This document shows, one piece after another, positions 36,922 to 38,239 of a stretch of 64,000 bases of DNA. This DNA is from Candidatus Peribacteria bacterium (GTDB taxonomy: Bacteria; Patescibacteriota; Gracilibacteria; Peribacterales; Peribacteraceae), in assembly GCA_023245865.1 (NCBI GenBank), contig JAHFJN010000001.1:398587-462586 (forward strand), written 5' to 3'. The notes beneath the pieces are model-generated. The model searched no databases. It saw nothing but the letters and a program-made list of their open reading frames with translations, and was not told the DNA's origin. How positions within the stretch are numbered: position 1 is the stretch's first letter; the number at the start of each line of letters is the position of its first letter. The position numbers and the translations under genes are program-made.

Positions 36922-37560
36922 TCACCCCTGCGCGATCACGAGTGCCTCCACATGCTGCGCTCCCGCATCTTTCAGAGCCTTCGCACACGCATCGAGCGTC
37001 GCGCCGGTTGTCGCGATGTCATCAACAAGAACAATGTGTGCGGGCACCGGTGACGCGGTGACGCGGAACATTCCGTGCATTGCAGTCAACCGTTCCTTGC
37101 GTGGACGGTGCGCTTGATGACCGGTCGGGCGGGTTCGCACGAGGAAATTCTGCATTGGCCACCCGCGCGCAGTACTCACGACCATCGCAAGCAACTGCGA
37201 TTGATTGAATCCGCGTGAAAATCTGCGCGTCCAGTGGAGCGGCACCGGGCAGAGGACAGTGTCGGTGTATTCCGTGAGAAGCTTGGACGCTTCGACGAGG
37301 AGCAAACCCAATGGGTTTTGGAGAGCCGAGACTTTTCCATACTTGAACCGCTGCACGGCAGTGCGGAGCATCGGCGAGGCATCGTACGTACTCGCGGCGA
37401 CAATGCGATCGAGGGAACGAAGTCTGCGTTCCCGCAAAACATTCTGCTCGATCCTGATCGGGTAGCTGCGAATCTCGGCCATCTCCTCACTCGTCACCCA
37501 CTCACCCTCCCTGCCACTCAGGGAGACCTTGGGGAAGAGGAGATCGAGGAGGGAGAACAT
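36922..37560 (-). CDS. ComF-type phosphoribosyltransferase-like protein
   Basis: 212 residues. The C-terminal half is a type I PRTase fold with the PRPP loop IVLVDDIATTGATL, preceded by CPVPLHWTRRFSRGFNQSQLLA, the ComF hallmark. The N-terminal region lacks the Cys pairs that form a zinc finger in many ComF proteins. ComF helps DNA import during natural competence. Flanked on the upstream side by the DUF559 cassette. Confidence 0.9.
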   Translation of the reverse strand: MFSLLDLLFPKVSLSGREGEWVTSEEMAEIRSYPIRIEQNVLRERRLRSLDRIVAASTYDASPMLRTAVQRFKYGKVSALQNPLGLLLVEASKLLTEYTDTVLCPVPLHWTRRFSRGFNQSQLLAMVVSTARGWPMQNFLVRTRPTGHQAHRPRKERLTAMHGMFRVTASPVPAHIVLVDDIATTGATLDACAKALKDAGAQHVEALVIAQG

Positions 37561-37579: not shown

Positions 37580-37951
37580 TTATACCTCCTCTCCCCGAGG
37601 GAGAGGATTGAGGTGAGGGGTCCTAAGATATTTCACAATCACTTCGATGACCACATGAATATCTTCCTTCAATTCATGATTTTCAAAATGCAGAATGCGA
37701 TGCCCGCATTTCTTCAAAAATTGTTCTCTTTTTTGATCATAAGCAACTTGCAATGCATGGATTCCGCCATCAAGCTCGATAATGAGGTTCGCTTCTCTAC
37801 AAAAGAAATCAACGATGTAGCAACCGATGGGAACTTGTCGGCGAAATTTGTAATCGCAGAGTTGCCTGTTCTTCAATTTTTTCCAGAGCAACTTCTCCAC
37901 AGGCGTTTGCTGTTTGCGAAGAGTCCGTGCGAATACAATGTTCTCTTTCAT
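37580..37951 (-). CDS. DUF559 (Vsr-like) endonuclease
   Basis: 123 residues. The fold signature is present: TPVEKLLWKKLKNR, then YKFRRQVPIGCYIVDFFC, then LIIELDGGIH, then a C-terminal RILHF strand. These contain the Asp, Glu and Gln/Asp residues of a PD-(D/E)XK-type nuclease related to very-short-patch repair enzymes. The last 15 or so residues are encoded by a palindromic repeat that also flanks the other side of the gene in inverted orientation. This suggests the gene travels with the repeats. Confidence 0.88.
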   Translation of the reverse strand: MKENIVFARTLRKQQTPVEKLLWKKLKNRQLCDYKFRRQVPIGCYIVDFFCREANLIIELDGGIHALQVAYDQKREQFLKKCGHRILHFENHELKEDIHVVIEVIVKYLRTPHLNPLPRGEEV

Positions 37952-38006
37952 GGAAGATTCATTCTACCCCTCACCCTAACCCTCTCCCTATAGGAGAGGG
38001 GTACCA
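37586..38006. mobile_element. DUF559 nuclease cassette framed by inverted palindromic repeats
   Basis: Left frame (37588-37623): a CCTCTCCCCGAGGGAGAGG hairpin, then GAGGTGAGGGGTCC. Right frame (37970-38000): ACCCCTCACCCTAACC-like start, then a CTCTCCCTATAGGAGAGG hairpin. The frames are inverted relative to each other with hairpins outermost, and the only content is a DUF559 gene whose C-terminal LRTPHLNPLPRGEE is encoded by the left frame. A gene-free version of the same frame lies at 45834-45936. Confidence 0.8.
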
Positions 38007-38054
38007 TGTGTTGCATCTCTTCGTTAATCCTCTTACACTTTCACTCTCTTCACC

Positions 38055-38130
38055 GGGCAATTAGCTCAGCTGGGTCGAGTCCACCTTGGCGGACGAGCAA
38101 TCAGAAAAGCGCCACTGGCGCTCTAGCCAG
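38055..38130 (+). repeat. fold-back tRNA-Val fragment with inserted core (upstream of tRNA-Val)
   Basis: 38055-38073 equals the first 19 bases of tRNA-Val. Next comes an insert forming a hairpin (GTCCACC/GGCGGAC, one mismatch) and the word ACGAGCAATCAGA. Then AAGCGCCAC resumes the tRNA around positions 24-31, and 38116-38130 (TGGCGCTCTAGCCAG) is the perfect reverse complement of tRNA-Val bases 38178-38192. The same design with the same core precedes tRNA-Ile. No anticodon or 3' half is present, so it is not a tRNA gene. Confidence 0.85.
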
Positions 38131-38162
38131 ACGGTTGAGAAGCTGTCATTATTTATACATTC

Positions 38163-38239
38163 GGGCAATTAGCTCAGCTGGCTAGAGCGCCACATTGACA
38201 TTGTGGAGGTCACTGGTTCAAGTCCAGTATTGCCCACCA
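38163..38239 (+). tRNA. tRNA-Val (GAC)
   Basis: 77 bases with CCA. Acceptor GGGCAAT pairs with ATTGCCC; anticodon stem CCACA/TGTGG encloses TTGACAT, giving GAC. Immediately preceded by a fold-back fragment of itself. Confidence 0.97.

Follow-up and report, generated by a model that had tools for sequence, protein, structure and literature searches.

Many bacteria have intergenic DNA full of short palindromic repeats. The GTAG-type REPs are, to our knowledge, the only ones with an accepted mobiliser; the Box C repeats of E. coli and the RIME-like repeats of Sinorhizobium we know solely as repeats, described without one. In the REPtrons, formed by REP/REPIN palindromes and a RAYT (TnpA-REP) of the HUH Y1 type (PF01797), a small gene lies between two inverted palindromes, solo and doublet palindromes occur elsewhere in the genome, and these repeats are similar to the frame of that genome's gene (PMC3733652; PMC3116915). 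CGTC-type REPs have no dedicated transposase, and untagged palindrome families are unexplained (PMC3733652).

A different set of enzymes is related to the locus described here by its nuclease. Vsr very-short-patch repair endonucleases and YcjD, which has been assigned to the PD-(D/E)XK superfamily, share the fold and superfamily of DUF559 (PMC1189080), and one DUF559 gene has been placed in the EDxHD homing family (PMC9403480). The Caulobacter DUF559 protein VsrA is reported to cause an SOS response when a cytosine methylase is missing, which was read as mismatch repair (PMC12907096); this DNA damage signalling makes it plausible that DUF559 proteins are active as nucleases in cells.

The cassette analysed here, a DUF559 gene between two inverted palindromes, shares with REPtrons the framed small gene, the solo and doublet palindromes elsewhere and the resemblance of genomic repeats to the genome's own frame. 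Unlike REPtrons, it encodes a PF04480 nuclease of the Vsr/EDxHD fold, and in place of a GTAG or CGTC tag its palindromes have a head of the TGAGG/CCTCA type (the frames in the window, which is the whole 64,000-nucleotide stretch of DNA analysed, end in GAGGTGAGGGGT and ACCCCTCACCC). It appears to work like REPIN/RAYT and yet is no member of that system, because the HUH transposase and the GTAG tag are absent. With EDxHD homing endonucleases such as I-Bth0305I (PDB 3R3P) it has in common a related nuclease sequence, the family catalytic residues and the apparent character of a selfish, self-spreading gene; unlike them, it lies outside introns and inteins, has palindromic ends of its own and occupies varied intergenic sites that differ among genomes. 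Unlike Vsr, it seems to be mobile, is multi-copy and palindrome-framed, and in the window has no adjoining cytosine methylase gene.

The DUF559 gene and its two palindromes

The cassette and its neighbours in the window are as follows.

36922–37560, minus strand: ComF-like phosphoribosyltransferase gene, neighbour (33 of the 36 genomes searched have an orthologue)
37580–37951, minus strand: DUF559 (PF04480) endonuclease gene of the Vsr/EDxHD fold, 123 aa (hmmscan E=2e-37)
37588–37606: left (3') frame hairpin, CCTCTCCC-CGA-GGGAGAGG (inverted repeat; folds alone)
37610–37621: left frame head, GAGGTGAGGGGT, facing the gene (sequence, translation)
37966–37976: right (5') frame head, ACCCCTCACCC, facing the gene (sequence, inverted repeat)
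37980–38000: right frame hairpin, CCCTCTCC-CTATA-GGAGAGGG (sequence, inverted repeat; folding)
37588–38000: whole cassette, palindrome–DUF559–palindrome, ~413 bp, proposed mobile unit (paralogue boundaries)
38163–38239, plus strand: tRNA-Val(GAC), neighbour (ARAGORN)

The gene is the sole DUF559 of a 1.1-Mb, 99.7%-complete, Patescibacteria-like genome. Its frames are inverted 34-nt arms (37588–37621 and 37966–37999) that are 82% complementary with 344 nt between them; either one consists of a perfect 8-bp-stem hairpin and a 12-nt head, and both heads face inward, to the gene. The original prediction held that DUF559 is the only gene inside the two inverted hairpin-plus-head frames and that the frame supplies its last codons. 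The ORF, the PF04480 match and the inverted repeats confirmed the first claim, with no other gene found between the frames, and the second holds as well, since the left frame, hairpin and head together, codes for the C-terminal residues TPHLNPLPRGEEV.

Across 40 DUF559 homologues, E, D, E-x-D, H and D are invariant, and the catalytic-type residues are present in the window protein. The protein's profile matches the solved structure of an endonuclease-like protein (PDB 3hrl) and that of the homing endonuclease I-Bth0305I (3r3p, E=2e-4); these solved structures were used in place of a single-sequence AlphaFold model, which was set aside (pLDDT 41).

The site is intergenic, between comF and tRNA-Val(GAC), and among these immediate neighbours of DUF559 there is no cytosine-5 methyltransferase gene. 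No DUF559 was found at the comF loci of 19 relatives, 13 of which have tRNA-Val(GAC) near on the same fragment. A partial tRNA-Val-like copy (GGGCAATTAGCTCAGCTGGG...), in which a 15-nt stretch is perfectly complementary to the real tRNA-Val, is found just upstream of the latter, at 38054–38192, and similar tRNA-like leaders stand in the same place in two relatives (L146, L152); the copy may be a structured leader or what is left of a tRNA. A separate observation concerns codon usage: four same-class relatives (G048, G057, G044, G046) have TGA in frame within DUF559, and some of them within ComF or Y1_Tnp matches, which suggests that TGA may be recoded in some relatives.

Framing of DUF559 genes across genomes

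Framing was scored over 300 bp on either side of DUF559, the left flank being compared with the inverted right flank. Most DUF559 genes of related genomes have strong flank pairs near the gene, which vary between loci and match within a locus; the window locus scores 17. The background was drawn from the window and its relatives as 21 regions, none longer than 20 kb (~390 kb together), and was scored as sliding windows and as other small ORFs. The sliding windows had a median score of 8.5 and a 99th percentile of 12.7, and 10 of 3861 scored at least 15. Whether flanking palindromes are enriched round DUF559 beyond the genome background was the point on which the original prediction had been staked, and they are: 15 of 24 DUF559 loci scored at least 15, against 2 of 238 control ORFs (Fisher p=1.7e-16, a value that ignores shared ancestry), and 12 of the 24 scored at least 18, a level reached by no control. 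One of the two framed control ORFs resembles an IS200-type transposase by sequence; such transposases are known to have palindrome frames. No other type of gene framed likewise was found in the ~390 kb of the window and its relatives.

Left and right flanks were also swapped between loci in a sample of 110 Patescibacteria loci. A score of at least 14 was obtained for 67% of a locus's own pairs, 30% of swaps between DUF559 genes of the same genome and 8% of swaps with other genomes. Own pairs beat swaps, and the pairing is therefore a property of the locus and not merely of a palindrome-rich genome. An artefact of repeat-dense intergenic DNA is ruled out by the sliding windows, the control ORFs and the swaps.

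When the set was enlarged to 161 distinct DUF559 loci, 93 were framed, and these belong to five phyla (Patescibacteria, Firmicutes, Proteobacteria, Cyanobacteria and Deinococcota). A matched frame is lacking at roughly a third to two fifths of DUF559 loci. Inverted palindromes frame the gene in Sinorhizobium (score 104), Azospirillum, Pseudanabaena and Deinococcus, as well as in Sphingomonas (in the sufB/sufC interval), Novosphingobium and Qipengyuania. The Firmicutes frame is a two-hairpin element with CGGATGAGGGG at its end. E. coli ycjD is followed by a palindrome of the same type as the DUF559 frames, which we take to be the Box C repeat known from the region upstream of envM/fabI; the Sinorhizobium repeats beside DUF559, also of this type, resemble RIME. 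The Neisseria gonorrhoeae locus (L076) has another layout: a copy of a ~110-bp repeat containing a CCCTCTCCC hairpin stands on either side of DUF559, and the two are in direct instead of inverted orientation. A link to CGTC-type REPs was sought; just 5 of the 161 loci have CGTC-like motifs in their flanks. A DUF559 consensus probe gave no match against viral contigs, and few DUF559 matches came from plasmid and phage collections.

The direction of the heads is mixed, inward at 31 and outward at 27 of the classable loci, so the arrangement is not explained by one simple cleavage geometry. Protein and frame similarity are weakly correlated (Mantel rho 0.21, p=0.001, ignoring shared ancestry), a relation also expected if the cassette were simply inherited from a common ancestor.

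Mobility of the cassette and its candidate mobiliser

Paralogous cassettes within one genome are 90% (G019), 83% (G004) and 81% (G030) identical over ~520–530 bp; they are alike from palindrome to palindrome and unlike beyond. The gene itself occurs sporadically and in several copies within genomes. At one locus pair (L018/L040; G011:C13:33250-34144), two tandem DUF559 cassettes stand 565 bp apart and are ~97% identical over 700 bp, which, as judged from this identity, is a recent local duplication.

The comparison of filled and empty sites that had been proposed for close strains yielded absent-cassette sites in Firmicutes and in Rhizobiaceae, at any one of which the difference could be a gain or a loss. 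In one Firmicutes genus the cassette adjoins a stop codon in two species (G171, G174), and G176 is without exactly the cassette and both palindromes, its adjoining sequence being 77–88% identical to theirs; no target-site duplication is apparent in G171/G176, on sites that have diverged. Shinella has no cassette between the same two genes that flank it in Sinorhizobium. Two other candidates were rejected: E. coli ycjD as a clean empty-site case, in that SF-173, which is without ycjD, has an RND efflux operon in the fabI–sapF interval, and Azospirillum L080 as a direct filled/empty pair, its flanks lying at differing places in relatives. In ~3360 of 5426 E. coli genomes, the greater part of the fabI–ycjD–sapF query region (L140) is present in one place.

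Because the unit recurs in five phyla and at new sites within genomes, it looks like an unrecognised minimal jumping element, and these sequence comparisons make it very probable that the palindrome-framed DUF559 cassette is mobile. The movement could be of the homing type, a reading that we regard as possible but rather unlikely: DUF559 would cut solo palindromes, and repair from the full cassette would convert the gene into palindromes that already existed. Both the I-Bth0305I profile match and the assignment of a DUF559 gene to the EDxHD homing family (PMC9403480) favour this reading, as does an Azospirillum site where A. lipoferum has a doublet, A. ramasamyi a solo palindrome and A. oryzae nothing. 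However, no palindrome is left at the absent-cassette sites of G176 and Shinella, and the homology available for repair would be only 30–50 bp.

Bare copies of the frame palindrome are scattered through genomes, and the repeats listed for each genome match its own DUF559 frames (e.g., G030, G024). Of the copies sampled in the G160 genome, the majority belong to the two-hairpin element that frames DUF559, and hairpin 2 shows compensatory changes. The A. lipoferum plasmids have gene-free palindrome–spacer–palindrome doublets at ~35 places (a count of similar places, five of which were aligned). Regular direct tandem arrays of palindromes with 193-bp and 250-bp spacing also occur in G160 (C1:1480500-1481089 and 3250666-3251176, respectively) and are a second mode of palindrome amplification.

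The number of palindromes follows the nuclease. Within the Firmicutes genus, counts are higher in genomes with DUF559 (p=1.6e-4, ignoring shared ancestry), a control with the reversed pattern is flat, and at least 9 copies occur in 10 of 29 genomes with the gene versus 1 of 35 without it. The same holds for the Patescibacteria relatives, both for counts (p=6e-5) and for the excess over the reversed control (p=4e-4; shared ancestry is again ignored). Counterexamples exist: DUF559 was not detected in some genomes that bear palindromes, and in several that have the gene the searched pattern is scarce.

That another enzyme, a RAYT or IS200 transposase, moves the palindromes and that DUF559 is cargo is improbable, even though RAYTs are associated with the GTAG-type REP palindromes (PMC3733652) and 32 of 58 relatives have Y1_Tnp genes. 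The window's genome, with 16 matches to the palindrome pattern, has no PF01797 (Y1_Tnp) match anywhere. Palindrome excess correlates with DUF559 (rho 0.46, p=3e-4) and not with Y1_Tnp (rho 0.11, p=0.40; both ignoring shared ancestry), and its mean is 4.9 in the 14 genomes with DUF559 and without Y1_Tnp versus -0.1 in the 7 with the converse. Moreover, the Y1_Tnp loci, which served as a positive control and are framed in 13 of 28 cases, have palindromes other than the DUF559 type, and DUF559 stood alone among gene types in being framed this way in the ~390 kb searched. Y1_Tnp as the mover of these palindromes is largely refuted. The original proposal that the nuclease may be the mobiliser gains support from the enrichment, the absent-cassette sites and this tracking; that DUF559 itself cuts the palindromes and moves the cassette is likely.

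A housekeeping role, in which a Vsr-like repair gene sits in repeat-rich intergenic DNA and terminators or other repeats collect beside it, would suit Caulobacter VsrA, with its SOS response without the cytosine methylase (PMC12907096), and the conservation of YcjD in many E. coli, but is very improbable, given that paired inverted palindromes are not produced by the intergenic background, that the gene is sporadic and multi-copy with similarity limited to the cassette, that DUF559 is absent at the syntenic comF site in relatives, and that equal framing round other small intergenic genes was tested and not seen.

A proposed mechanism and its meaning

The framing, the copies within genomes, the absent-cassette sites and the repeats that track DUF559 indicate a unit that behaves like REPIN/RAYT with a nuclease replacing the RAYT. 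On these grounds the cassette is probably a minimal mobile element, composed of one nuclease gene and two inverted hairpin-plus-head palindromes and moved by DUF559. The protein would bind its own frame palindrome, probably by the hairpin and the TGAGG/CCTCA-type head, and would cut at the palindrome so bound; the palindrome-bounded segment would next be copied by host repair or replication into a break at some other, mostly intergenic, place. Host functions would be required because enzymes of the Vsr/EDxHD fold hydrolyse DNA but do not rejoin it. Bare palindromes and doublets would be non-autonomous offspring of the cassette in the same genome, as REPs and REPINs are to RAYTs, and the DUF559 element may in this way also spread bare hairpin repeats that are common in bacterial genomes.

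A search of the literature, outside which most subscription papers and preprints lay, found nothing that linked DUF559, YcjD, PF04480 or COG2852 to palindromic repeats. We lean towards the view that the cassette represents a new class of element, in which a lone nuclease of the Vsr/EDxHD fold, unaccompanied by any transposase or recombinase, is the mover of a large superfamily of intergenic palindromes that spans phyla; on the same footing, that superfamily would comprise the CCCTCACCC-type, Box C-like, RIME-like and two-hairpin CGGATGAGGGG-type repeats. If this is true, DUF559 would join the RAYTs as a second known kind of mobiliser of REPs, and the origin of Box C-type repeats would become testable in E. 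coli K-12. Partnership with the CCCTC/TGAGG-headed class would give a role to a widespread domain whose function is unknown, and an element would be seen to be driven, through borrowed host repair, by a nuclease that has no strand-joining chemistry.
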